From Streptomyces flavochromogenes (GTDB taxonomy: Bacteria > Actinomycetota > Actinomycetes > Streptomycetales > Streptomycetaceae), in the NCBI RefSeq assembly GCF_000717595.1, contig NZ_JNZO01000039.1, positions 8,965-72,964 on the forward strand: 64,000 bases of DNA, given 5' to 3'. The notes under the pieces were generated by a model, which was not told the origin of the DNA, made no database searches, and worked only from the letters and a program-made list of their open reading frames with translations. This document shows, piece by piece, positions 5,879-64,000 of the stretch (its first letter is position 1; the number at the start of each line of letters is the position of its first letter). A program made the translations under genes and the position numbers.

Positions 5879-7489
5879 TTGCCCACTCAGATCTCGCTGC
5901 ACGACGTCGTCGTATCCCGTGGTGAACGACTGCTCCTCGACCAGGTCTCGCTCTCCGTGCGCCCCGGGGAGCGGATCGGGATCGTGGGGGAGAACGGCGC
6001 GGGGAAGTCGACTCTGCTGCGTCTCCTCGCCGGGGTGGAGCAGCCCGACGAGGGCAGTGTCGTCACCGTCGCCGACGGTGGTCTGCGGATGCTCGCCCAG
6101 ACACCCGACCTGCCTCCCGGCGCCACCGTCGGCGACGCGATCGACGCCGCGCTCGCCGAGCTCCGCGCCATGGAACGGCGGCTGCGCGCACTCGAAGCCG
6201 GGCTCGACACGGCGGACGGGGCGGAGCTCGACGCGTACGGCGAACTCCTCACCGCCTACGAACTGCGGGGCGGATACGAGGCGGACGCCCGGGTCGACAA
6301 GGCTCTTCACGGACTGGGGCTCGCGGGCACCGGTCGTGAGCGGATACTCGGCAGCCTCTCCGGCGGCGAGCTGGCCCGGCTCGGCATCGCCTGCGCGGTC
6401 GCGGCCGGCCCCGAGGTGCTCCTGCTCGACGAACCCACCAACCACCTCGACGCGCAGGCGCTGGACTGGCTGGAGGGCGCCCTCCGCGCGCACCGCGGGA
6501 CCGTCGTGGCCGTCTCCCACGACCGGACCTTCCTGGAGCGCGTCGCCACCACGATCGTCGAGGTGGACGCCGACCGTCGGGCGCTCGTGCGGTACGGCGA
6601 CGGATACGCCGGCTACCGCGCGGCACGAGCGGCCGCTCGGCGGCGCTGGGAGGAGGCCTACGAGGAGTGGTGCGAGGAGACGGCCCGGCTGGAGGTGTAC
6701 GCCGCGACCACGGCGCACGGAGTCGCACCCGGAAGGGAGATGAAGGACAACAACAAAATGGCCTTCGACCGGGCGGCGGGCCGCGTCCAGGCCTCTGTCT
6801 CGGGGCGCGTCCGCAATGCCCGGGAGCGACTGAGACGACTCCGCGACGAGCCCGTGCCTCCGCCGCCTCCGCCCCTCTCCTTCTCCGCCCGCCCCCTGGC
6901 GGGCGGAGCCGAGGGAGAGCTCGTCACTCTGACCGGGGTGCGGGTCGCGGACCGTCTCTCCGTGGACACGCTCACCGTGCGGGCGGGGGAGCGGCTGCTC
7001 GTCCACGGCGGCAACGGCGCGGGGAAGTCCACCTTGCTGAGGGTCATGGCAGGGACGGTCGGCCCCGACGCCGGGGACGTCCGGCGCGCCGGACGGGTCG
7101 GGTACCTGGCCCAGGACGTCACCGTCCGGCGGCCGGAGGAGCGACTGCTGGCCTGTTTCGGCCGCGGGCTCGCCCTCGCCGACGACGAGCGGGCCGAACT
7201 GCTCCTGTCGTACGGACTGTTCCGCCCGGCCGACCTGAGCGTGCCGGTAGGCGGCCTCTCCGCGGGGCAGCTCCGTCGGCTGGCGCTCGCGCGGCTGCTG
7301 GCCCGGCCCGCCGACCTCCTCCTGCTCGACGAGCCCGGCAACCACCTGGCCCCGGGGCTCGTGGAGGAGCTGGAAGCCGCGCTGGAGCAGTGGACCGGAG
7401 CCCTAGTGGTGGTCTCGCACGACCGTGCGCTGCGCCGTCGCTTCACCGGGCACATACGCCGGATGGACTCCGGACGCCTCCTCGGCTGA
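5879..7489 (+). CDS. ABC-F family ATPase (antibiotic-resistance / ribosome-protection type)
   Basis: A soluble protein of 536 residues with two ABC ATPase domains and no membrane segments, as in ABC-F proteins that act on the ribosome. Domain 1 has Walker A GENGAGKSTLL, signature LSGGELARLG and Walker B VLLLDEPTNHLD. Domain 2 has GGNGAGKSTLL, signature LSAGQLRRLA (one change from LSGGQ) and LLLLDEPGNHLA. They are joined by a charged linker rich in Arg and Glu. TTG at 5879 was chosen because GGAG lies six bases upstream; ATG codons at 5834 and 5861 lack a site. Divergent from a TetR regulator, the usual arrangement for inducible resistance. Some ABC-F proteins have translation roles unrelated to drugs. 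Confidence 0.88.
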   Translation: MPTQISLHDVVVSRGERLLLDQVSLSVRPGERIGIVGENGAGKSTLLRLLAGVEQPDEGSVVTVADGGLRMLAQTPDLPPGATVGDAIDAALAELRAMERRLRALEAGLDTADGAELDAYGELLTAYELRGGYEADARVDKALHGLGLAGTGRERILGSLSGGELARLGIACAVAAGPEVLLLDEPTNHLDAQALDWLEGALRAHRGTVVAVSHDRTFLERVATTIVEVDADRRALVRYGDGYAGYRAARAAARRRWEEAYEEWCEETARLEVYAATTAHGVAPGREMKDNNKMAFDRAAGRVQASVSGRVRNARERLRRLRDEPVPPPPPPLSFSARPLAGGAEGELVTLTGVRVADRLSVDTLTVRAGERLLVHGGNGAGKSTLLRVMAGTVGPDAGDVRRAGRVGYLAQDVTVRRPEERLLACFGRGLALADDERAELLLSYGLFRPADLSVPVGGLSAGQLRRLALARLLARPADLLLLDEPGNHLAPGLVEELEAALEQWTGALVVVSHDRALRRRFTGHIRRMDSGRLLG

Positions 7490-51935: not shown

Positions 51936-52116
51936 CGGGGCGGGCCGAGCGGGATTCGGTAGGACGGTTGTACCCGGGCTGACCTGGCGTTCCCGGGTGC
52001 GTTCCCGTGCCCTGCCGGAAGGCGGTATCGGCTCGGGAACGGTCCGGGAACGGGTCGCCGGAGAGTACGTGGTGTCGGGAAGCAGAACCGAAGAAACCAC
52101 GTAAAGGGGATAGGCC

Positions 52117-52422
52117 ATGGGACGCAAGTCGACTGGACTCGCCGGGATCGTCGTCGCCGCCGCTCTCGCCCTCGGGCTCGGGATCACGGTGGAGACGGGT
52201 CACGGGCAGAGCCGGCCGGCCGGCGTGCAGGTCCAGGCCGACGACCAGGGCCCGACGGTGATCGGCAAGGGTGGCGTGGTTCGGGTCGGCGCGACCGATG
52301 ACCAGGGTCCGACCGTCATCGGGTCCGGGGTCGTCCAGGCGGGTGCCACCGACGACCAGGGCCCGACGGTGATCGGCAAGGGCGCGCCCGCCGCCGGCGG
52401 TCAGAGCGTCTTCGCCGCCTGA
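52117..52422 (+). CDS. Small exported protein with three DDQGPTVIG repeats
   Basis: A 101-residue protein. Residues 7-27 are hydrophobic (GLAGIVVAAALALGLGITV), a signal peptide or membrane anchor. The rest is three copies of an 18-19-residue unit starting DDQGPTVIG[K/S]G, separated by VV..VGAT or VVQAGAT. There are no cysteines or catalytic motifs. ATG at 52117 follows AAGGGG. The gene is convergent with a large AfsR-like regulator; AfsR of S. coelicolor is also next to a small repeat protein (AfsS), but the repeat sequences differ and I do not claim homology. Role unknown. Confidence 0.75.
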   Translation: MGRKSTGLAGIVVAAALALGLGITVETGHGQSRPAGVQVQADDQGPTVIGKGGVVRVGATDDQGPTVIGSGVVQAGATDDQGPTVIGKGAPAAGGQSVFAA

Positions 52423-52481
52423 TTCCCCGCCCGTACGTCGGCCACGTCGCCGGCCCGGCCACGTCGGCCACGTCGGTGACG

Positions 52482-55400
52482 TCAGCTGCGACGGCGTTCC
52501 GCCGGGACGCCCATCTCGCCGAACAGGTCCTCCGCCGAGCGCTCGTTGCGCGCCGCCTCCTCCGAGAGGCCGAGGGCGGCCTGGGCGCGGGCCATGCCGG
52601 ACAGGGCGTAGGCCATCTCGATGCGGAAGTCGAGGGAGTGCGCCACCTCGTGGGCGCTCTCGTGCAGCCCGAGCGCCGCCACGTACTCCTTGCGCTTGTA
52701 GAGATAGCGGCCGACGGTGTTCTCGACCTTGGCCCGGCGCAGTGGAGAAACGTTTGGCCCGATGGTTTCCATGGCTCGGTCCGCGTACCGGACGGCCTGA
52801 TCGTCCCTGCCGAGACGCTGGGCGACCTCCGCGAGCAGCGCGAGGGCCAGGGCCACCTGCCCCGGGTCGCTGTTCTCGGTGCACAGCGCACGCGCCCGCG
52901 CGAGGGACAAGTCGGCGGCCTCGTTGTCGCCGAGGCAGGCGTGGGCGAACGCCAGGTCCGTGAAGGCCACCAACTTGTTCTCGTGCTGGCCCAGTTCGTC
53001 GCAGAGCGCGATCGCCCGACGGGCCGCCGACGCCGCCTCCTCGTGCCGCCCCCACTGCTCGTACAACGTGCTGAGCAGGGTGAGGCTCTCGGCCTCCGCC
53101 CGGCTGGCGCCCAGCTCCCGCTGGTGCGCGATCGACTTCTCCAGATGGGACAGCGCCTGCGGGAACCGGCCGAGCAGACTGTTCAGCTGGCCGAGGGCGC
53201 CCTCGCTGTGGGCCAAGGTCTGGACGTCCCCCAGCCGTTCGGCGACGTCCCGGCCCTCCGTGGCCACCTCGATGCCCTCGGCGAAACGGCCCAGCTTCCA
53301 GCACGCCACACCCAGATTGGACAGGCTCACACCCAGCAGCGGCAGTTCGCCGAGCCGGCGCGCGGCCGCCACCGCCAGCAGCCCCATCGAGCGGAACTCC
53401 TCCAACTGGCCCCGCGCACTGAGCTGGAAGGCCAGATTGCGGCTCAGGAACACGGTGTGGCGGTCGTGTCCGAGCCGGTCCGCCAGGCCCACCGTCCCGA
53501 GCAGGGACCCCTGCTCCCGCGCGAACCACTGCTCGGCCTGCTCGCTCTCCGCGAACCGCGGCAGCCGCATGAGCCACGCGTCCGCGTCCTCCACCTCCGC
53601 CACCTCGGTGGGGATGCGGCGCCGGCCCGGGAACATCACCTGGCAGGCCGACTCCGTCGCCGCCAGGTAGTAGTCGAGCAGCCGGCGCGTCGACGCGGAG
53701 TCGTCCTCCTCCGTCGCCGTCGACCTGAGGCTCTGCGCGAAACTGCGCACCAGGTCGTGGAAGGTGTACAGGCCGATCTCCGGCTGCTGCAACAGATGGA
53801 CGTCCAGGAGGAGTTCCAGGATGTCCTCGGCGTCGGCCGGATCGGTCTCCAGGAGAGCGGCCGCCGCGTACACGTCGAGGTCGCCGCCGGGATGCAGTGC
53901 CAGGCTGCGGAACGCGGTCCGGCAGTCCTGCTCCAGGGCCTGGTACGACAGGCGCAGGGTGGCGGCGACGCTGCGCTGCCCCGAACTCAGCTCGTCCAGA
54001 CGGCGCGTCTCGTCGCGCAGCCGGTCGGCCAGGTAACGTAACGTCCAGCGCGGCCTGTTGCGCAGCCGGGCGGTCGCGATCCGCAGCGCCAGCGGAAGAT
54101 GACCGCACAGCCGCGCCAGTTCGGCCGCCGCCTCCGGCTCCGCCGCGTACCGCCGTTCGCCCAGGGTCTCCGCCATCAGTGCCGCGCACTCCGCCGGCGA
54201 CATCACGTCGATCGAGATCCACTGTGCCGAGTCGAGGTCCACGAGCCGGGCCCGGCTGGTGACGAGGACCAGGCAGCCCGGGGTGGTCGGCAGCAGCGGT
54301 CGCACGCCGTCGGCGTCGGCGGCGTTGTCGAGGAGCAGCAGCAGACGCTTCCCGGTGACGGTCGACCGCCACAGCGCCGTACGACCCGCGAGGTCCTCCG
54401 GAATGCGCGAGCCCGGCACACCCAGGGCGCGTAACAGGCTGTCGAGCGCTCCGCCGGCGGTCACCGGCTGCTCGCCGGGCGTGTAGCCGCGCAGGTCGAT
54501 GTAGAGCTGGCCGTCGGGGAACTCGGAGGCCAGCGAGTGCGCCGCGTGCACGGCCAGAGAGGTCTTGCCGCTGCCGCCCATGCCGTCCAGGGACACGATC
54601 CGGGAATGCCGCGCGCAGTCCCGGCCCGCCGAGTCGAGCAGCTCCCGCAGTTCGTCACCGCGGCCGGTGAAGTCCGCCAGGTCGTACGGCAGGGTGCACG
54701 GTGCCTCGGTGGGCGCCGCCGCCGTCAAGACCACCGGGGCCGCGACGGGCGGGGGGACGGGGGCGGCCAGCTCCGGGCTGTCGCGCAGGATCCCCTCGTA
54801 CACCTTGGTCAGCCGGGGGCCCGGGTCGACGCCCAGCTCCTCCACCAGGAGCTCGCGGACCCGGCTGTACTCCTCAAGGGCCTCCGCCTGCCGGCCCGAG
54901 CGGTACAGGGCGAGCATCAACTGGGCGCGCAGCGACTCGTGCAGGGGATGCGCCTGCACCAGATCCCGCAGATCGACGACGAGTTCCGCCGTCTCGCCGA
55001 GACCGAGGCGGAGATCGAAGAGCTGCTCCGCGGCGGCGAGCCTGCGCTCCTCCAGCGCGGTGGCCGCCGCCTCGATCACCGGGCCGCCCGCCCCCGACAG
55101 GATCGGGCCCCGCCACAGGCCGAGGGCCCGGCGCAGCGCCTCCACCGCGTCGACCGTCCGGCCCTCGCCCGGGGCGTCCCGGGCCGATTTCACAAGACTG
55201 CCGAACTCCGTCAGGTCGAGCTGCTCCGGAGCGAGGGCCACCCGGTATCCGGGGCCGTCGGTGACGATGACCTCGCTGCCCGCGGGGATGCGCCGACGCA
55301 GATCCGCGACCGCCTTGCGGACCTGGTGCGAGGCGGTCGCCGGCGGGTCCTCGGCCCAGGCCGACTCCACGAGCCGGCCGATCGTCAGGACCCTTCCGGG

Positions 55401-55529
55401 CTCCAGGAGCAGCGTACCGAGCACGCGTTCCTGGATGAGGCCCCCCAGCCTCAGCCGGGAACCGTCGGCCCAGCCCTCGAGGGGGCCCAGCACGTTGAAT
55501 CTCAGCGATTGCTCCTCGGCAGCGGTCAT
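52482..55529 (-). CDS. AfsR-like SARP transcriptional regulator (wHTH-BTAD-NB-ARC-TPR)
   Basis: A 1015-residue activator of the Streptomyces antibiotic regulatory protein family. In order: OmpR-type winged helix (residues 9-100, [23 protein letters not shown]), BTAD (105-250, [50 protein letters not shown]), NB-ARC ATPase (290-560; Walker A [13 protein letters not shown] at 315-326, Walker B [10 protein letters not shown]), and C-terminal tetratricopeptide repeats. ATG at 55529 gives [11 protein letters not shown]; no strong ribosome site precedes it. Large SARPs switch on adjacent biosynthetic clusters, so it probably controls the NRPS operon beginning at 59.1 kb. Confidence 0.92.
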   Translation of the reverse strand: [1015 protein letters not shown]

Positions 55530-55723
55530 TGCCGCGAGCACCCCCCCAGGTCTCCCGGCCACGCCCTCGGCGCCGGTGTTTGCGGATCCTAGCCCGTTCC
55601 CGTGACCCCCGGGAACGAGGCGGTACGGGATCGGTAAGTGGTCCCGCCACCGTATGACCCACGAGGCCGACTCCTTCACGGCCCTCGCGACTGAGGACCC
55701 CCCATGCAGCAAGGAGACTGGTC

Positions 55724-57109
55724 ATGACCGAACAGGCATCGCCGGACGGGCTCGCCGAGCAGCTGCGGGCGGCACGGCAGTGGGCCGGCATCACCCAGGA
55801 GCAGCTGGCCGGCCTGTCGACCGTCAGCGTGCGGGCCATCCGGGATCTGGAGCAGGGACGGGTGCGGCACCCGCGCCGGGAGACGCTCCGGCTGCTCGCC
55901 GGCGCCATGCGGCTGAGCGACGCCCGCCGCGCCGCCCTGGAGCTGGCCGTCGAAGGGGCGGAGGCCGGCACGGTGATGCGCGAGGCGTACGGGGCCGAAC
56001 TTGCGCCGCCGCCCCAGCCGTTGCGCAGACTCGTCGGCCGCACCGAGGAACTCCGCTCCCTGACCAGTCTGTTGGCCACCGAGCATGAGCGGCTCCTCAG
56101 CGTGGTGGGCCTGGCCGGTGTGGGCAAGACACGACTGGCCCAGGAAGCCGCCCTGATGCTCCACGGCCGCGACCGGACCCCCGTCGTCTGGGTCGACATG
56201 ACCGGGACCGCACCGCAGCCCGCCGGACCCGCCGGGACCCGCAGCCCGCGGTCCGCGCTGACGGGCTGGGCCCGCTCCCTGGCCCTCGGCGGCCGGGGGC
56301 TGGACGAGCTCGCCTCCGTGATACGCGGCCGGGCCACCCTGCTGGTCCTCGACGGCCACGACACCGGCCCCCACCTCACGCCCCCGCTCCTGGAACTGCT
56401 GCACGTCTGCGAGCGGCTCAAGGTGCTGATCACCACGCGCGAGCCGCACCGCACCCCGGGCAACCGGATGCTGCCGCTCGGCCCGCTGCCGGTACCCGCC
56501 CCGGAGCCCCCGGAGTTCCCGGGCGGGGCCGCGGCGCCCGGCGCCTCCCTGACCGCCGGGCAGCCCGCCGTCGAGCTCATGCTGTCGTACGTCGGTCACA
56601 TGCGCCCGGACCTGATGCCCGGCGACTCGCTGGTGCGCACGGTGGCGCGGATCAGCCGGGCCCTCGACGGTGTGCCGCGGGCGATGGAGGCGGCCGCCTC
56701 CTGGCTGCTGCTGCGTTCTCCCGCGGAACTGCTGCGGATCGCGCACAGCACGCCGCTCGACGTCGTCGACGACGTGACCGGGGACGCCGGTGGCGACGGG
56801 GGTGGCGAGGGACTCGCCGCGCTGCTCGCGGCGGCCGTGGCCCGGCTCGACGACGGGCCCGCGGCGCTGCTCGGTGACCTGAGCCTCCTCCCCGACGGCT
56901 GGAGCGCCGACGAGGCCGCCGCCGGCCTGTCCGCGACCCCGGCCTCCGTGGTGCGCGACGTCCACGCGCTGATGCTGCGCGGTCTGGTACGACGCCTTCC
57001 CGGCGAGGAGGACGGAGCCCCGCGGTTCGGGGTGCTCAACCTGGTGCGCCGGCTCGCCGCCGAGCGCGCCGCCTCGCTCGTACCGGCGACGGCCCTCGTC
57101 TCCTCCTGA
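55724..57109 (+). CDS. XRE-type HTH / NB-ARC regulator without repeat domain
   Basis: A 461-residue STAND-like protein. Residues 9-66 are a Cro/C1-type helix-turn-helix (LRAARQWAGITQEQLAGLSTVSVRAIRDLEQG). The NB-ARC ATPase begins near residue 100 with LRRLVGRTEELRSL and has Walker A VVGLAGVGKTRLAQ, an acidic Walker B (LLVLDGHD), and an ITTREPHRTPG motif. It ends soon after the ATPase, lacking the TPR or WD sensor region that STAND regulators usually have. ATG at 55724 follows AAGGAG. Divergent from the SARP gene across a 194-bp gap. It is likely a pathway-specific regulator of the adjoining cluster. Confidence 0.85.
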   Translation: MTEQASPDGLAEQLRAARQWAGITQEQLAGLSTVSVRAIRDLEQGRVRHPRRETLRLLAGAMRLSDARRAALELAVEGAEAGTVMREAYGAELAPPPQPLRRLVGRTEELRSLTSLLATEHERLLSVVGLAGVGKTRLAQEAALMLHGRDRTPVVWVDMTGTAPQPAGPAGTRSPRSALTGWARSLALGGRGLDELASVIRGRATLLVLDGHDTGPHLTPPLLELLHVCERLKVLITTREPHRTPGNRMLPLGPLPVPAPEPPEFPGGAAAPGASLTAGQPAVELMLSYVGHMRPDLMPGDSLVRTVARISRALDGVPRAMEAAASWLLLRSPAELLRIAHSTPLDVVDDVTGDAGGDGGGEGLAALLAAAVARLDDGPAALLGDLSLLPDGWSADEAAAGLSATPASVVRDVHALMLRGLVRRLPGEEDGAPRFGVLNLVRRLAAERAASLVPATALVSS

Positions 57110-57117
57110 ACAGACCC

Positions 57118-57175
57118 CGCTCTCCCTGCGCTTCCTCTTCCCGCTCCCTTCCGCTTCCTCCTCTCCCTCCTCGAA
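57118..57175 (+). other. Pyrimidine-rich leader before the carbamoyltransferase gene
   Basis: An almost uninterrupted C/T tract (few purines) in the gap before the ATG at 57192. It is unlike the purine-rich leaders nearby. Role unknown. Confidence 0.4.
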
Positions 57176-57191
57176 GAAAGGCCCGTCCGCC

Positions 57192-58115
57192 ATGCGCAAC
57201 CTGATCTCGCTCGCCGACCTCAAGCCCGAGCAGCTCGCCCGTATCGTCGCCCGCGCCGTCGAGTTCGGCACCGGCGGCGTCGACGACAAGCCGCTGGCCG
57301 GACGCCAGGTCGGTGTCTACTTCCGCAAGTCGTCCACCCGGACCCGGACCTCGTTCTGGAGCGGAGCCACCCGGCTGGGCGCCGACGTCATCACCTTCGG
57401 TCCCGACGAACTCCAGCTGACCACCGGCGAGACCGTGGAGGACACCAGCAGGGTCCTCGGCCAGTACCTCGACGCGCTCGTCGTCCGCACCAACGGCGAC
57501 GTGGCGGAGATGCGCCGCCTCGGCGGCAGCCCGGACCTCGCGGTGGTGAACGCCCTCAGCCTCGACGAGCACCCGACCCAGGCGATCGCCGACCTGACCA
57601 CGCTCGCCGAGCACTTCGGGAAGCTCGCCGGGCTCCATGTGCTCGTCGTCGGCGAGGGCAACAGCTCCGGCGCGGCCCTCGCACTGGCCGGCGCGCTCAC
57701 CCCCGGGCTGCGGATCACCCTGCTGAGCCCCGAGGGGTACGAGGTGCCCAAGAGCACCATGGACCTCGTGGACGAACTGAGCGGCGGCGAGCACCAGGTG
57801 CGCCGGATCACCGACCCGGCCGAGGTCGACGGCCCCGTCGACGCGGTCTACACGAGCCGCTGGCAGACCATGGGCGTGCCGAAGGCCGACCCCCACTGGC
57901 TGGAGGCGTTCGAGGGGTTCGCCATCGACCGCGCGTTCTTCGAGCGCTACAGCGGTCCCGACACCGTCTTCCTGCACGACCTGCCCGCCGTGCGCGGCCA
58001 GGAGGTCGCCGACGAGGTCCTCGACGGCGAGCGCAGCCTCGCGTGGCGGCAGGCCCACCACAAGATGACCGCGGCGATGGCCGTACTGGAGTGGTGCGTG
58101 GTCGGCGAGAACTGA
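57192..58115 (+). CDS. Aspartate/ornithine carbamoyltransferase-family protein
   Basis: A 307-residue enzyme of the carbamoyltransferase family, which transfers the carbamoyl group of carbamoyl phosphate to an amine. The phosphate-binding STRTR is at residues 48-52 (RKSSTRTRTSF, nearer ATCase than OTCase in the following TSF). HPTQ is at 127-130. The usual OTCase HCLP is HDLP at 262-265, and the ornithine loop SMG is TMG in RWQTMGVP. These changes suggest a different acceptor from ornithine. ATG at 57192 has GAAAGG upstream. Placement between the regulators and MbtH indicates a cluster enzyme rather than primary arginine synthesis. Confidence 0.85.
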   Translation: MRNLISLADLKPEQLARIVARAVEFGTGGVDDKPLAGRQVGVYFRKSSTRTRTSFWSGATRLGADVITFGPDELQLTTGETVEDTSRVLGQYLDALVVRTNGDVAEMRRLGGSPDLAVVNALSLDEHPTQAIADLTTLAEHFGKLAGLHVLVVGEGNSSGAALALAGALTPGLRITLLSPEGYEVPKSTMDLVDELSGGEHQVRRITDPAEVDGPVDAVYTSRWQTMGVPKADPHWLEAFEGFAIDRAFFERYSGPDTVFLHDLPAVRGQEVADEVLDGERSLAWRQAHHKMTAAMAVLEWCVVGEN

Positions 58116-58137
58116 GCGGCACAGGTCCGAAACGGAC

Positions 58138-58187
58138 GGGGGCGGCGTCGGTACGGGTTCGTGGAACCCGGTACCGACGCCGCCCCC
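58138..58187. terminator. Strong bidirectional terminator
   Basis: Very long hairpin (about 24-bp arms with one bulge, 3-base loop) between the convergent carbamoyltransferase and MbtH genes. Confidence 0.9.
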
Positions 58188-58205
58188 GCGTGTGAGCGAC
58201 GGTCG

Positions 58206-58418
58206 TCAGCCGCCCATCGCGGCGACCACCGAACGGGGCCGCAGATCCGTCCAGTTGGCCTCGATGTACTCGGCGCACTCCTGCTTGCCGCCCTCCTCGC
58301 GGACCAGCTGCCAGCCCTCAGGGCGGCGGATCCGGGCGGGCCACAGCGAGTGCTGGCCCTCGTCGTTGGCCAGGACGACGAAACGGCCGTCGGCGTCGTC
58401 GAACGGATTGGTTGCCAT
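58206..58418 (-). CDS. MbtH-like NRPS chaperone
   Basis: A 70-residue activator of adenylation domains. It has NPFDD at the N-terminus, SLWPARIRRPEGW (the conserved LWP-x5-P-x-GW core), and CAEYIEANWTDLRPRSV at the C-terminus, all diagnostic. ATG at 58418 follows AGAGGTGAAG. It probably supports the NRPS beginning at 63.4 kb, although it is on the opposite strand and in a different operon. Confidence 0.95.
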   Translation of the reverse strand: MATNPFDDADGRFVVLANDEGQHSLWPARIRRPEGWQLVREEGGKQECAEYIEANWTDLRPRSVVAAMGG

Positions 58419-58575
58419 GGCTTCACCTCTGTGGGTTCCGTGGAACGGGGATCCGGTGCCGCACCGGTGCCTCGACGCTACGAGACCGTGTCCGCCGGTT
58501 CGGGCAGCCGGAGCGGCAGTTGGGCGGCAGCCCGCCCGGGCCTCCTGCCCGGCGGCCGGCCCCGCGCGTGGCGTC

Positions 58576-58845
58576 CTAGACGAGGACGCGGGACACCTCG
58601 TTGGCGCGGGTGACGGCGATGCCGGTGGCGACGGCGGCGGCCCGTACCGAGCCGAGCGCCTCGCGCAGCAGCTCCGTGCGCAGCAGGGGCTGGTCCGCCA
58701 GCTCCGGCCGGTCGGCGTCGATCAACTGCACCGCCGCCTCCAGTACGGCGAACTTGGCCTCGCCCAGGGGCTCGTGGCGGTCGGCATCGGTCATGACGTC
58801 GCGCAGGGCCGCGGCCAGTTCCGCGGCGGGGGCGATCTGGGACAT
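58576..58845 (-). CDS. Small helical protein of unknown function
   Basis: An 89-residue, largely helical protein (ELAAALRDVMTDADRHEPLGEAKFAVLEAAVQLIDADRPEL). No cysteine, signal peptide or known motif. ATG at 58845 follows GAGGAG. It lies upstream of mbtH on the same strand with a 157-base gap, and divergent from the glutamate-mutase operon. Small proteins of this sort occur in NRPS clusters, sometimes as accessory or carrier-binding factors, but no role can be shown from sequence. Confidence 0.65.
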   Translation of the reverse strand: MSQIAPAAELAAALRDVMTDADRHEPLGEAKFAVLEAAVQLIDADRPELADQPLLRTELLREALGSVRAAAVATGIAVTRANEVSRVLV

Positions 58846-59103
58846 GGGTCCACTCCTCAGGGTTCTCGGACGCGCGTGCTCCCGCGTTCCGCTCCGGCCC
58901 ACGGGGCTTCGGAGCGGCGGATTTCGACTGTAGGGCGGGCCGGGAGGGCGGCGGCGACAGGCGCCGGCAACTGCCGCCCGGCTGCCGCCCGGGGCGCCGG
59001 TCGGCGCGGTCCCGCGTTCCTACGATCGATGCCGAAGGGATGTTCCGAGCGATCCAGGACCTCCTTCTCCCACTTGTCATCCCACGATGTGGACGAAGAA
59101 GTG

Positions 59104-59682
59104 ATGATGCAGACTGCGGAATGGGCGTCCCGAGAGCGATCCGGGCCGCTGGACGTCGTTGTCACCGGACTGCCGTCCGATGCGCACACCTGGAACCTCG
59201 TATTCATCCAGCTGCTGATCGAGGACCTGGGACACCACGTCATCAACCTGGGCCCGTGCGTCCCCCAGGACGAGATCGTCGAATCCTGCGGCAAGTACCA
59301 GCCCGACCTGCTCGTGGTCAGCACCGTCAACGGCCACGGCTTCCAGGACGCCGACCAGCTCATCCGGGCGATCCGCTCGCGCTGGGAGCTGGCGGGCCTG
59401 CCCGCCGTCATCGGCGGCAAGCTGGGCGTCCTCGGCACCGAGCAGCGCGCCGGGCACGGCCGCCGGCTCCGCGAGGCGGGCTTCGACGCGGTGTTCCAGG
59501 ACGACCCGGAGCAGGGCCAGGGCGCGGGCCTCGGCGCGTTCGAGGCGTTCATCGCCCGACTGGACGCCGAGCGCGGCCCGGCCGCCCCGCTCGCGGCCGA
59601 CGACGCCGCGGCCGCCGACCGCGTCCCCGCCGGCCTGGCCCCGGTGGCTTCCGCCGCCTCCCTCGAAGAGGTGGCAGGGTGA
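59104..59682 (+). CDS. Glutamate (methylaspartate) mutase, cobalamin-binding S subunit
   Basis: A 192-residue B12-binding protein that forms adenosylcobalamin-dependent glutamate mutase with the next gene product, rearranging L-glutamate to (2S,3S)-3-methylaspartate. The cobalt-ligand motif DxHxxG is SDAHTWN: the histidine is kept and the glycine is replaced by asparagine. ISSLYG is VVSTVNGHG, and the GG motif is VIGGKLGV. The last 40 residues are Ala/Asp-rich. ATG at 59104 is preferred; GTG 59101 and ATG 59107 are possible and the ribosome site is weak. The E-subunit gene overlaps its stop by four bases. Confidence 0.92.
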   Translation: MMQTAEWASRERSGPLDVVVTGLPSDAHTWNLVFIQLLIEDLGHHVINLGPCVPQDEIVESCGKYQPDLLVVSTVNGHGFQDADQLIRAIRSRWELAGLPAVIGGKLGVLGTEQRAGHGRRLREAGFDAVFQDDPEQGQGAGLGAFEAFIARLDAERGPAAPLAADDAAAADRVPAGLAPVASAASLEEVAG

Positions 59683-60986
59683 CGTCCTTCGGCCGGTTCG
59701 TGGCCGCGGCCCACGCGCGGGGTGCCCTCGTGGTCCAGCCCCGCATGGGCTTCTCCGAGCCCGCCCGGATGAGGACCGGGCTCGCGGCCACCAAGGCCGC
59801 CACGGACGCCGTCGCCGGCACCCTCACCATCGACAGCTACACCCGGGTCTGCGACGAGCCCTCGGCCGTCCGCGCCCTGGGCGACGGCATCCCGCTCAAC
59901 GGCTACCCCCTCACCTCCTACAGCCCGAGCACCTCGCACTGGGTCCTGGAAGGTCTCGCGGACGAGACCTTCCCCGTCCAGGTCCGGCACGGCTCGGCCA
60001 GGCCGCAGCGGATCGTCGCCGCCCTCGCCCGGCTCGGCCTCACCGCGACCGAGGGCGGACCCGTCTCGTACTGCCTGCCCTACGGCCGTACCCCGCTGGA
60101 GGACTCCGTCCGCAACTGGACGGAGACCTGCCGGCAGTTGGCCGCCCTGCGCGCCGACGGCGCGGAACCCCACCTGGAGAGCTTCGGCGGCTGCATGCTC
60201 GGCCAGCTCTGCCCGCCGGGACTCCTCGTCGCCATCAGCGCCCTGGAGGGACTCTTCTTCCACCGGGCGGGACTGCGGTCCGTCTCGCTCAGCTACGCCC
60301 AGCAGACCAACCCCGAGCAGGACCGGCAGGCAGTGCGCGCGCTGCGCCGGCTCGCGTCCGAACTCCTGCCGGACACCGACTGGCACGTCGTCGTCTACAC
60401 CTACATGGGCGTCTACCCGCGGACCACGCGCGGAGCCCACGCCCTCCTGGTGGACTCCGCCGAGCTCGCGGTCCGGGCCGGCGGGCAGCGGCTCATCGTG
60501 AAGACCGCCGCCGAGGCCCACCGCATCCCGACCGTCGCCGAGAACGTCCGCGCCCTGCGCATCGCGACGGAGGCGGCCCGCCGTGCCGCCGCGGCCGCGG
60601 GCGCCGAGGAGGGGGACGACGAGGCCGACAACCCCGTCTACGCGGAGGCCCGCGCCCTCGTGGACGCCGTACTCGACCTGCACACCGACCTCGGCAGCGC
60701 GCTCCTGAAGGCCTTCGAGCGCGGCTACCTGGACGTCCCCTACTGCCTGCACCCCGACAACGCCGGCCGCTCCCGCAGCCACATCGACGCGGCGGGCCGC
60801 CTGACCTGGTCGAACATCGGGGCCATGCCCATCGGTCGGGTCGCCGGACGCAGCGGCGCCCGGCTCACCGCGACCGGTCTCCACGACGCGCTGACCTTCG
60901 TGCAGCGCCGGTACGACCACCTCGACACCCGCACCGAGGACGTCGACCACACCCCCGTCGACGCCCCTCTCCTCCAGGAGGTATGA
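59679..60986 (+). CDS. Glutamate (methylaspartate) mutase, epsilon (E) subunit
   Basis: Catalytic TIM-barrel subunit, 435 residues. It matches the E-subunit pattern in VVQPRMGFSEPARMRTGLAA, TLTIDSYTRV, LNGYPLTSYSP, QVRHGSARPQRIVAALARLG, EGGPVSYCLPYGRTPLEDSVRNWTE and FGGCMLGQLCPPGLLVAISALEG. The GTG at 59679 overlaps the S-subunit stop (GTGA), and its own stop overlaps the next start (ATGA). Similar pairs supply 3-methylaspartate to friulimicin, streptolydigin and vicenistatin-type pathways. No MutL gene is present here, so the cluster uses the two-subunit form only. Confidence 0.93.
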   Translation: MTSFGRFVAAAHARGALVVQPRMGFSEPARMRTGLAATKAATDAVAGTLTIDSYTRVCDEPSAVRALGDGIPLNGYPLTSYSPSTSHWVLEGLADETFPVQVRHGSARPQRIVAALARLGLTATEGGPVSYCLPYGRTPLEDSVRNWTETCRQLAALRADGAEPHLESFGGCMLGQLCPPGLLVAISALEGLFFHRAGLRSVSLSYAQQTNPEQDRQAVRALRRLASELLPDTDWHVVVYTYMGVYPRTTRGAHALLVDSAELAVRAGGQRLIVKTAAEAHRIPTVAENVRALRIATEAARRAAAAAGAEEGDDEADNPVYAEARALVDAVLDLHTDLGSALLKAFERGYLDVPYCLHPDNAGRSRSHIDAAGRLTWSNIGAMPIGRVAGRSGARLTATGLHDALTFVQRRYDHLDTRTEDVDHTPVDAPLLQEV

Positions 60987-62005
60987 CCATGACCGTCACC
61001 ATCGCCGAGGCCGTGGACGAGGCTCTCCTGCCGTTCCCGTCCTCGCCCGACGCGCATCTGACCGATCCGCTGACCCGGGCCACCCTGCGCGTGCAGAGCC
61101 ACATGCTCACCGCCACCCGCGCCTTCCTGACCGCCCGCGGTTTCCAGGAGCTGCTGCCGCCCATCATCGGTCCGGTCACCGACCCCGGCATCCGCGGCTC
61201 CAAGCAGGTGGACGTCGACTTCTACGGCCACAAGTACAAGATGATGACGAGCGCGATCCTCTACAAGCAGGCCTCGCTCCTCGCCTTCGACAAGATCTTC
61301 TACATCGCCCCCAACGTCCGGCTCGAACCCCTCGAAACGGCCGTCACGCACCGCCACCTCGCCGAGTTCCACCAGATCGACGTCGAGATCCGCGACGCCC
61401 GCCGCGAGGACGCGATGGACCTCGCCGAGCAGCTCGTCACCCATGTCGTCGCCGAGGTCGTGTCCCGCATGCCGGCCGAACTCGACCTGCTCGGCCGGGA
61501 CACCGCCGCCCTGCGCGGGATCTTCGCGAGTGCCTTCGGACGCGTCGGCCACCAGGAGGCCACCACCGAGCTGATCGGCCTGGGCCACCCCCAGGACCCC
61601 GCCGCCGAGATCGACTGGCAGGGCGAGGAGATCGTCTCCGCCCGCGCGGACCGCCCCTTCTTCATCACCGACTACCCCAAGGGATCCCGCGGCTTCTACG
61701 ACAAGGAGAACCCCGAACAGCCGGGTGTACTGCGGAACTTCGACCTCATCGCCCCCGAGGGGTACGGCGAGCTCGCCAGCGGCAGCGAGCGGGAGCACGA
61801 CTACGCCACCCTCGTCACCCGCATGCGGGAGACCGGCGAGAACCCCGCCAAGTACGGCTGGTACCTGGACCTGGCGCGCCGCGGCATCCCCGCCAGTTCC
61901 GGCTTCGGCATCGGCCTGGAGCGCTTCACCCGCTATGTCACCGGACGGCAGGCCGCCTGGCAGGCCAGCGCCTACCCGAAGCTCCCCGGGGTGGTGTCGG
62001 CGTGA
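60983..62005 (+). CDS. Asparaginyl-tRNA-synthetase-like enzyme lacking the anticodon-binding domain
   Basis: A 340-residue class II synthetase catalytic domain. Motif 1 region is ATRAFLTARGFQELLPPII, motif 2 is APNVRLEP then THRHLAEFHQIDVEI, and motif 3 is GFGIGLERF at residues 307-315. The N-terminal OB-fold that binds tRNA in AsnRS/AspRS is missing; the protein starts at the catalytic core. The same architecture is known in archaeal asparagine synthetase-like AS-AR. It likely makes an acyl-adenylate of aspartate or 3-methylaspartate, perhaps amidated by ammonia. It is translationally coupled to the mutase and to the following flavoprotein. A charging role on tRNA is not supported. Confidence 0.82.
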   Translation: MTMTVTIAEAVDEALLPFPSSPDAHLTDPLTRATLRVQSHMLTATRAFLTARGFQELLPPIIGPVTDPGIRGSKQVDVDFYGHKYKMMTSAILYKQASLLAFDKIFYIAPNVRLEPLETAVTHRHLAEFHQIDVEIRDARREDAMDLAEQLVTHVVAEVVSRMPAELDLLGRDTAALRGIFASAFGRVGHQEATTELIGLGHPQDPAAEIDWQGEEIVSARADRPFFITDYPKGSRGFYDKENPEQPGVLRNFDLIAPEGYGELASGSEREHDYATLVTRMRETGENPAKYGWYLDLARRGIPASSGFGIGLERFTRYVTGRQAAWQASAYPKLPGVVSA

Positions 62006-63297
62006 GCACCGCACTCGTCGCGGACGGCTTTCCCGAGGAGCAGGTCCGGCAGCGCGCCCGGCACGGCGCCGGGGCCGTCTTCCCCGCAGAGGCGGGCTAC
62101 GGCACCGGACTGCTCGGCGCCGTTCCGGCCCCGTCCTCGGAGCGGGCCGGGTACGACCCGGACGACCTGCTGGAGCGGATCCGGATCGTGCCGCCCGTCT
62201 TCATGCCCGAGCGGCTGAAGAAGCTCATCGACCTCGCCCGCGAACCCCTCTACAGCGACGTCGAACTCGACTCCGTCGTCGGCGGGTTCACCAGCCGGCT
62301 GCCGCTCTACGTGTCGGCCTTCGGGTCCACCCGGGCAGCGAGCCACGACCTGGGCGAGGCCGCCGGGCGGCAGGCCGGAGCACTCGGCATTCCCCTGGTC
62401 ATCGGCGAGAACGTCGTCCCCGTCAACGGCTACCGCAGCGCCGGCGAGGCCGGTGCCTCCCCGCTGCTCGGCAGGATCGCCGCCTACGCCGAGGCCGCCG
62501 ACGACGAGCACGGCGGCGTCGTCGTCCAGCAGTCCACCGAGGACGCCGACGCCGAGGTCTGGAACCTCGTCTACAGCGACCCCGTCACGGAGCCCCTGCT
62601 CGCCACCGGCCGCCTCGCCTTCGAGCTCAAGGTCGGCCAGGGTGCCAAGCCCGGCCTCGGCGGGCTCACCCTGCTCGACCGGGAGACCGCGGGCCAGGTC
62701 GCCGAGCAGTACTCCCTCGACGAGGTGTTCGGCGCCGGCAGCGGCCAGGTGCTCCGGGTCGCCAGCCCCGGCACCTTCACCGAGGAGATCCTGCGTCAGC
62801 AGATCCGCCTCATGCGCAACAACTTCCCCCGGGCCCGGGTATGGGTGAAGCTCCACCCCGGCCGGGACGTGGCCCACGCCGCGGCCACCGCCTGGGCGGC
62901 CGGCGCGGACTCCGTCACCGTCGACGGCGCGGAGGGCGGCACCGCCTGGGCCCCCACCGGCTTCCTCACCCACGTCGGCCTGCCCCTCGCCGACTGCCTG
63001 CGCCGCGTCGGCCGCACCGACCACTGCCTCCTCGCCAGCGGACGCATGTGGGAGGGCACCCGCGCCGTCAAGGCCCTCGCCCTCGGCGCCCGCGCCGTCG
63101 GCCTCGGCCGCGCCGCGCTGCTCGCCGTCGACGAGGACCGCGAGGCCGGCCTGACCCGGCTCGTCGAAGCCCTCGCCCTCGAACTGCGGATGCTGACCAG
63201 TGCGGTCGGCAAGTACCACGTCAACGCCCTGGCCCCGGAGGACCTGCTCCTGCCGGACCGGTGGGAGCAGCCCCCGGCCGCCCCCGGCGCCGCCTAG
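62002..63297 (+). CDS. Stand-alone glutamate-synthase FMN-domain protein, no Fe-S cysteines
   Basis: A 431-residue flavoprotein resembling the FMN-binding barrel of glutamate synthase. Family segments: FELKVGQGAKPGLGGLTL (substrate/FMN loop), VWVKLHPGRDVAHAAATAWAAGADSVTVDGAEGGTAWAPTGFL (FMN-phosphate binding) and ALGARAVGLGRAAL. Glutamate synthases place a cysteine triad for a [3Fe-4S] cluster after this; here there are only two cysteines in the whole protein, in ADCLRR and DHCLLAS. So electrons must come from another donor or the enzyme acts differently. GTG at 62002 overlaps the preceding stop. Possible roles are reductive amination or imine/alkene redox of a precursor. Confidence 0.8.
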   Translation: MSTALVADGFPEEQVRQRARHGAGAVFPAEAGYGTGLLGAVPAPSSERAGYDPDDLLERIRIVPPVFMPERLKKLIDLAREPLYSDVELDSVVGGFTSRLPLYVSAFGSTRAASHDLGEAAGRQAGALGIPLVIGENVVPVNGYRSAGEAGASPLLGRIAAYAEAADDEHGGVVVQQSTEDADAEVWNLVYSDPVTEPLLATGRLAFELKVGQGAKPGLGGLTLLDRETAGQVAEQYSLDEVFGAGSGQVLRVASPGTFTEEILRQQIRLMRNNFPRARVWVKLHPGRDVAHAAATAWAAGADSVTVDGAEGGTAWAPTGFLTHVGLPLADCLRRVGRTDHCLLASGRMWEGTRAVKALALGARAVGLGRAALLAVDEDREAGLTRLVEALALELRMLTSAVGKYHVNALAPEDLLLPDRWEQPPAAPGAA

Positions 63298-63402
63298 CCC
63301 GCCTCAGCACCACCTACGCGATTCCCAGTCGTGGCCGTACGGGATGTCCGGCACGCCGCGAGACCCGTACCCGCCCGAACCTTCGAGAATGGTGTCGAGA
63401 AG

Positions 63403-64000
63403 ATGTCTCACCAGCACTCCGTCCTGGCTCCCGCCGTCGACATCGACGCGTACAACAGCACCGCCGTGCGGCTCCCCGAGGGCGCCCTGCACGAGTTGTT
63501 CGCCGCCCAGGCCGCACGGACGCCGGACGCCGTTGCGCTGGTGTGCGGGGAACGCGAACTCACCTACCGCGAGCTGGACTCGGCCGCCACGGTCCTGGCG
63601 CACCGCCTGCGGGACCGGGGCGTCCGGCCCGGCGACGCCGTAGGTCTCTTCCAGGACCGCTCCCTCGCCTACGTCGTCGCGATGCTCGCGGTGCTCAAGG
63701 CGGGTGGCGCCTACGTGCCGCTGGACCCGCGTCAGCCGGAGGAGCGGCGGGCGTTCATCCTCGCCGACACCGGGGCCGTACTCCTCCTCACCGACCGCGA
63801 CGAGCGGGAGGCGGCCTTCGCCGGCGACCTGCCGGTGCTGCGGCTGACGGAGGACGTGACGGTTCCGGAGGGGGACGGCGCGGCGGCCCTCGACGTGGCC
63901 GTCCATCCTGACCAGTTGGCGTACGTGATGTACACGTCGGGTTCGAGTGGGGTGCCGAAGGGTGTGGCGAACACCCATCGGAACGTGGTGGAGCTGGCGT
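63403..64000 (+). CDS. Non-ribosomal peptide synthetase, adenylation domain, 3' end outside window
   Basis: The frame is open to the window edge, giving 199 residues. After about 20 residues comes the start of an adenylation domain (LHELFAAQAARTPDAVALV, ELTYRELD). Core A1/A2 are AVLKAGGAYVPLDPRQPEE, and A3 is YVMYTSGSSGVPKGV near the edge. There is no condensation domain before it, so this is probably an initiating module or a separate A-domain protein. ATG at 63403 follows GAGAAG. The specificity-conferring pocket lies beyond the window. It begins 105 bases after the flavoprotein gene, in the same direction. Confidence 0.92.
   Translation, partial: MSHQHSVLAPAVDIDAYNSTAVRLPEGALHELFAAQAARTPDAVALVCGERELTYRELDSAATVLAHRLRDRGVRPGDAVGLFQDRSLAYVVAMLAVLKAGGAYVPLDPRQPEERRAFILADTGAVLLLTDRDEREAAFAGDLPVLRLTEDVTVPEGDGAAALDVAVHPDQLAYVMYTSGSSGVPKGVANTHRNVVELA

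Follow-up and report, generated by a model that had tools for sequence, protein, structure and literature searches.

Results

A four-gene operon ahead of a peptide synthetase

The window analysed here is the whole stretch of 64,000 nucleotides from Streptomyces flavochromogenes (assembly GCF_000717595.1, contig NZ_JNZO01000039.1, or contig C39 in our numbering of this genome), and its end is the end of the contig. At 59104-63297 it carries four genes, named here glmS, glmE, asnL and gltL, which lie head to tail, all on the plus strand. They encode a GlmS-like B12-binding small subunit of 192 amino acids (59104..59682), a GlmE-like catalytic subunit of 435 amino acids (59679..60986), AsnL, an asparaginyl-tRNA synthetase (AsnRS) core of the asparagine-synthetase-A type with 340 amino acids (60983..62005), and GltL, a stand-alone GltS-like barrel of the flavin mononucleotide (FMN) type with 431 amino acids (62002..63297). 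The three junctions (GTGA, ATGA and GTGA) are each an overlap of four bases, which bears out the initial annotation of the genes as one coupled unit, and the four-gene arrangement first described there was confirmed as real. The cassette had also been placed directly ahead of a non-ribosomal peptide synthetase (NRPS), and such a gene was found at that position. It most likely begins at 63403, about 100 bases past GltL, with an adenylation (A) domain first and no condensation (C) domain ahead of it (63403..64000, plus strand; PF00501, with six-module homologues in genomes G243 and G162), and is truncated at the end of C39. No RNA elements were found above the Rfam cut-offs at 52000-64000.

Family membership and conserved residues

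GlmS matched PF02310 with 42.4 bits (cut-off 32.1), and in the alignment to PDB 1i9c its motif SDAHTWN has DxHxxN instead of DxHxxG, with the D and the His kept. GlmE matched PF06368 with 269.6 bits (cut-off 26.6). In a hand-counted alignment to 1cb7, its residues R22, R56, R103, E125, Y131 and Y135 correspond to R66, R100, R149, E171, Y177 and Y181, which we take to be the glutamate-site residues of the solved glutamate mutase, and all six were invariant in 10/10 aligned GlmE rows.

For AsnL, PF00152, the core of class II D/K/N synthetases, gave 182.3 bits (cut-off 25), and the score for NF005052, 'asparagine synthetase A', was above the cut-off (443.9 vs 368). Its structure matches were 1x54, an AsnRS, and the archaeal AsnA structures 1nnh and 3p8t. 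As the match to 1x54 covers only residues ~119-431 and the anticodon domain is absent, a true asparaginyl-tRNA synthetase could be ruled out, in agreement with the earlier view of the enzyme as tRNA-independent. Residues K95, Q96, R113 and R314 were invariant across 12 aligned rows, and two sites side with archaeal AsnA rather than AsnRS (LYKQ/LHKQ vs LYLE, and PASSGFG/KPSAGAG vs PHSGFG). In four loci (L083, L089, L092 and L104) GlmE and AsnL form a single reading frame.

GltL matched PF01645 with 74.4 bits (cut-off 20.4) and carries the motifs FELKxGQGAKPGxGG, WVK and DGAEGGT, the QGAKPG loop being aligned to that of GltS; its cofactor is thus expected to be FMN. Only the FMN part of GltS is matched and there is no glutaminase domain, which agrees with the initial annotation of a GltS-type FMN domain enzyme and rules out a whole glutamate synthase subunit. 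No cysteine occurs past residue 376, where the GltS match ends, in what is presumably the place of the 3Fe-4S cysteine ligands. The DGAEGGT motif at 308-314 has no His, as judged by a motif comparison with 2-hydroxy-acid oxidases and not by superposition. Some GltL relatives are named in one source after subunit C of a methylamine-glutamate enzyme. Glutamate synthases were not among the 50 structure matches listed for GltL, which proves nothing.

Distribution of the module

When GltL was profiled against 394 genomes of the family to which the window belongs, presumably all Streptomycetaceae, it was found in 66 of them (the window's own genome included) with E values no higher than 3.4e-46, and the match that came next had E 9.5e-17 and 36% identity. 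When one genome per species was scanned, 312 GltL relatives were retrieved. The locus counts rest on the best 80 of these 312, which are all titled Actinobacteria and contain GltL by construction, as GltL was the bait; contig-end loci (L069, L077, L095) were scored as lacking genes. AsnL was present in 80/80 of these loci and all four genes in 68/80, so the genome-neighbourhood search suggested in the initial annotation showed that the cassette recurs. AsnL and GltL were same-strand neighbours in 77/80 loci, with the 4-base overlap in 75/80, which exceeds what chance would give; GlmS and GlmE were neighbours in 64/68 loci (63 overlapping), and GlmE and AsnL in 55/70 (28 overlapping).

To obtain a test of the pairing that does not depend on the bait, AsnL, and likewise GlmE, was sought genome-wide in a hand-picked sample of 22 of the 66 GltL-positive genomes, mostly ones without the A-domain motif described below, and 33 of the 328 GltL-negative genomes (13 with the motif and 20 taken from among the first listed). 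AsnL was found in 22/22 positive genomes (59-82% identity; only as partial frames in G074 and G124, and not adjoining GltL in G065, G289 and G176) and in 0/33 negative genomes (best E 6.3e-25, 31%), whereas GlmE with at least 53% identity was found in 19/22 and 6/33, respectively, one of the latter being a fragment. Since AsnL-GltL is constant and GlmE is sometimes absent, AsnL-GltL is the constant pair and glutamate mutase its usual supplier.

Across 92 loci, the four cassette families occurred in 90, 81, 74 and 73, and the next most shared family, a regulator, in 28. This count covers proteins of 100-800 amino acids, so that fused or merged frames drop out, and may be one too high, as G173 and L096 are a single record; L079 and L091 are weak rows with no GltL among their gene calls.

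Genomic contexts

The cassette lies beside NRPS clusters of several architectures. It also occurs in other surroundings, in which enzyme names were given by recognition. In L114, L120, L127 and L130, a PP-loop-like enzyme and two ligases of the ATP-grasp-like type accompany either the full set of four or AsnL-GltL, with no NRPS among the genes listed, which for L114 applies to the whole locus listing. In L099, L121, L128 and L135, the cassette or pair stands with a methionyl-tRNA-synthetase-like protein, a cupin and an N-monooxygenase-like protein, a set which we take to be one for hydrazine formation, and these clusters probably carry out N-N bond chemistry. ATP-grasp-like and decarboxylase-like proteins accompany the cassette or pair in L083, L095, L115 and L132; of these, all but L083 also have a small carrier protein and all but L115 a KASIII-like protein. 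A reading of the gene set as special to this window was not supported, as homologous sets are widespread and include loci such as L114 where an NRPS was not seen. As the surroundings differ between loci, the cassette has the character of a portable amino-acid supply module.

In nine distinct cassette loci there is, in addition, a stand-alone A protein of the Gln type together with a TauD-like oxygenase and a thioesterase, which could be the parts expected for hydroxyglutamine. With their hydroxyglutamine-type genes and the cassette, G173 and G196 were considered as lipopeptin clusters and rejected, because the order of their A domains is not that of a lipopeptin (a comparison made without the start of G208 and the end of G271); the loci of G065 and G289 are so fragmented that they could not be rejected likewise. 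In G173, G196, G271 and L080-type loci, the NRPSs have two C-domain motifs separated by ~570 residues, which points to a module that lacks an A domain, and the first three of these loci also have the stand-alone Gln-type A protein and the TauD-like oxygenase.

A domains and the loaded monomer

An A-domain motif of the SPVSWDA type, searched as a DNA pattern, was present in 43/66 GltL-positive and 13/328 GltL-negative genomes (Fisher 4.4e-29, a value that treats closely related clusters as independent); the backward-pattern control gave 1 match. G133 and G382, which are among the 13 negative genomes, are assemblies of ~800 contigs in which a close GlmE is present. The approximate A-domain codes, read at what we assume to be the code positions, including 278, were valine-like, with Q, H or Y instead of W at position 278. 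For the first module, which is cut in the window, the code in close relatives is about D-S-Y-Y-W-G-A-V-F, again valine-like with W278 replaced. A valine-like pocket with one polar position would suit a residue that has a carboxamide in place of one valine methyl. Asn-type codes, read by eye, were found beside the cassette in G241 and G250.

The C domains that follow the candidate modules scored 387-605 bits against post-valine C domains and 76-105 bits against post-epimerisation ones, in a comparison with only two D-type references and with valine references from the same clusters. The loaded residue probably has the L configuration at its alpha carbon, because these C domains resemble the post-valine and not the post-epimerisation type.

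Other genes near the cassette

Upstream of the cassette, an ornithine-carbamoyltransferase-like gene (57192..58115, plus strand) matched PF02729 and PF00185 and scored under the equivalog cut-offs. Its homologues are more than 60% identical in 19 of the best 80 loci, which are close relatives of the window cluster, and a 49% homologue lies ~30 kb from the cassette in G196. An MbtH-like protein of 70 amino acids (58206..58418, minus strand), named by recognition, holds a conserved position in relatives, and a small open reading frame of 108 amino acids (58576..58902, minus strand) is conserved in close relatives. Two regulators lie further out. The first is a helix-turn-helix (HTH) regulator (55724..57109, plus strand; PF13560 and PF01381 above cut-off, with a weak sub-threshold AAA match), to which related genes were found in 28/92 loci. 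The second, an AfsR/SARP-like regulator (52482..55679, minus strand), was named by recognition from its sequence, has a similar position in relatives and is likely to lie near the border of the cluster.

Beyond this gene, at 52117-52422 on the plus strand, is a 101-amino-acid exported-looking peptide with three DDQGPTVIG repeats. Relatives with four to seven DD[QKR]GP repeats lie beside close cassette clusters (L038, L040, L044, L062, L063 and L075), and the peptide may be a precursor from which a short signal peptide is released. Lentzea cassette clusters (L113, L117, L119 and L122) encode another kind of small peptide near 6000 on the minus strand, in which SNPWN is repeated four or five times; in L113 its gene adjoins that of a large AfsR-like regulator.

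Elsewhere in the same genome, the end of contig C20 is a counterpart of the other end of the cluster. An NRPS tail comes first, followed by GHMP-kinase-, SbnA-, ATP-grasp-, ArgH-, major-facilitator-superfamily- and phosphopantetheinyl-transferase-like genes, of which the ArgH-like gene is 85% identical to its G243 homologue. With NCBIfam, the G243 homologues gave SbnA-, ATP-grasp- and ArgH-type matches that were all under cut-off and none for the kinase-like gene; the remaining C20 genes were named by recognition. From friulimicin and pacidamycin, we assume genes of this type to be makers of 2,3-diaminobutyrate. A second GlmE, 54% identical to that of the window, is encoded together with a GlmS on contig C49 (27654-28808, minus strand; locus L005) and was rejected as a partner of the module, as no AsnL or GltL was found across 13.9 kb.

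Discussion

The coupling of the genes, their family membership, the conservation of key residues and the AsnL-GltL pairing in the genomes tested are observed. On these grounds, we give an even chance to the reading that the four genes are a portable supply module for a β-methylasparagine-type amino acid that feeds peptide assembly lines. As a glutamate mutase is combined with an asparagine synthetase, the predicted product is 3-methylasparagine. In the first step, which we propose most firmly, GlmS and GlmE would use coenzyme B12 to convert L-glutamate to L-threo-3-methylaspartate. AsnL would then, with fair confidence, adenylate the side-chain carboxylate and amidate it with ammonia to give 3-methylasparagine; the initial annotation had offered adenylation or amidation, and amidation is the better alternative because AsnL belongs to the asparagine-synthetase-A family. 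More speculatively, GltL could edit 3-methylasparagine at C2 or C3, and the product might be loaded by an A domain of the valine-like kind whose pocket holds a polar residue.

As for the GltL step, the enzyme is related to a hydride-transfer enzyme as well as to a redox-neutral FMN isomerase, so that C3-epimerisation and C2-oxidation are both possible. Our first choice is C3 epimerisation via a transient 2-imino or enamine form, which is favoured by the requirement of the NRPS for an alpha-amino acid and by the C domains, as these argue against a D residue, although as an assignment it stays tentative and clearly below an even chance. The second choice is a net oxidation to the 2-imino or 2-oxo acid, in which the amide could shield the β-carbonyl acid from decarboxylation. 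A wider claim, to which we would give slightly less than even weight, is that GltL has a new FMN activity on beta-methylated asparagine (as a C3-epimerase or an amide-protected C2 dehydrogenase) and, at the same time, that AsnL-GltL is a general marker module of a large, unstudied actinobacterial peptide family that includes NRPS, ATP-grasp and hydrazine-type clusters.

Several observations weigh against the supply of a β-methylasparagine-type residue. As we know of no product for the window or for any of the retrieved loci, the amino acid is predicted, and plain 3-methylasparagine would need no GltL, yet GltL is constant. GlmS (52.4 vs 110) and GlmE (152.9 vs 390.1) scored under the NCBIfam equivalog cut-offs for methylaspartate mutase and are therefore divergent relatives; a glutamate mutase function of GlmE is argued from residue conservation despite this divergence. 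GlmS and/or GlmE are missing in 12/80 loci, some of them at contig ends, GlmE and AsnL are not adjacent in 15/70, and the fused GlmE-AsnL frames were taken as they stand in public assemblies. A close GlmE is lacking in 3/22 GltL-positive genomes (none in G176 and G135, and only 32% identity in G124) and is carried by the six GltL-negative genomes noted above. As for loading, the A-domain motif is absent from 23/66 GltL-positive genomes, including the window's own, where the NRPS is broken at contig ends, the patterns used to extract the codes were crude, with several wrong automatic readings, and clusters hold several A-domain types, so that more than one of them could load the product of the module. 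Finally, G176, L103, L105 and L136 carry a LeuA-type gene and GlmE was not found there, so AsnL and GltL may act on substrates other than 3-methylaspartate.

This last point leads to an alternative that we consider unlikely but the strongest of its kind: AsnL-GltL could be a general amide/oxidation pair for 3-substituted aspartates or malates from varied routes, with glutamate mutase as one supplier. GltL would then be a C2 dehydrogenase or oxidase giving a 2-oxo or 2-imino succinamate, which a transaminase would re-aminate. The constancy of the pair with dispensable GlmS/GlmE is consistent with this, as are the LeuA-type genes and, in L136, LeuC, LeuD and a branched-chain aminotransferase, all above cut-offs (an M20 amidohydrolase gene is also present in L136). 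An amide would block the decarboxylation expected of a 3-alkyl oxaloacetate. Branched-chain transaminases were found in 7/92 loci, five of which also have GlmS/GlmE, whereas the other 85 had no such transaminase within the stretches covered; in addition, the A domains look to be of the alpha-amino-acid type, and the missing catalytic-His motif sets GltL apart from the hydroxy-acid oxidases, again by motif comparison.

It is improbable that GltL makes the alpha-epimer, D-3-methylasparagine, ahead of loading. A pattern search of the NRPSs of G243, G257, G162 and G316 gave no epimerisation domain, which speaks for it, but the C-domain scores, with their two D-type references, disfavour it. Equally hard to favour is action of GltL on a carrier-bound or released peptide (giving, for example, a dehydro-methylasparagine), perhaps with a late AsnL, as the pair also occurs in L114-type loci with no NRPS listed, even though FMN enzymes of the GltL-type fold take varied substrates and AsnL and GltL may act in either order and on other than free substrates.

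If the supply of a β-methylasparagine-type residue is correct, it would provide a route to the β-methylasparagine of omnipeptin and the lipopeptins, and GltL would add an FMN reaction. The asnL-gltL pair, usually with its 4-base overlap, could serve as a two-gene marker for peptide clusters, with the 312 GltL relatives as a starting set.

Comparison with known systems

To our knowledge, the glutamate mutase of friulimicin has no AsnL or GltL partner, and the vicenistatin-type route has no AsnA-like or GltS-like one. The friulimicin product keeps a free side-chain acid, and the building block of vicenistatin-type macrolactams becomes a 3-aminoisobutyrate polyketide starter. No description of the glmS-glmE-asnL-gltL set was found in excerpts of the open-access literature, subscription papers being outside its coverage. 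Friulimicin offers a likeness for the first step, as its two-subunit glutamate mutase GlmA/GlmB supplies 3-methylaspartate to an NRPS (PMC9113097), and a glutamate mutase also takes part in the building-block route of the macrolactams (PMC11284099). The mutase part is already known from friulimicin, and GltL is possibly a new enzyme.

For the predicted product, the likeness is to bacterial peptides with β-methylasparagine. Omnipeptin contains this residue and was, to its authors' knowledge, the first such bacterial NRPS product (PMC6710260), and in the lipopeptins it was assigned together with β-hydroxyglutamine, the gene cluster being described as still to be identified (PMC10172682). Excerpts of these two papers describe no route to β-methylasparagine.

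GltL shares the barrel with the K..QGAKPG.GG and GG motifs with the FMN domain of glutamate synthase and with subunit C of N-methylglutamate synthase. It differs from glutamate synthase in standing alone and in being equally close to type 2 isopentenyl pyrophosphate isomerase by profile and fold. AsnL resembles archaeal AsnA, the AsnRS paralogue (3p8t/1nnh), in having the AsnRS core without the anticodon domain and in common active-site positions. In contrast to archaeal AsnA, AsnL is encoded in biosynthetic operons, where it is coupled to glutamate mutase or fused with it, and its substrate is probably 3-methylated.

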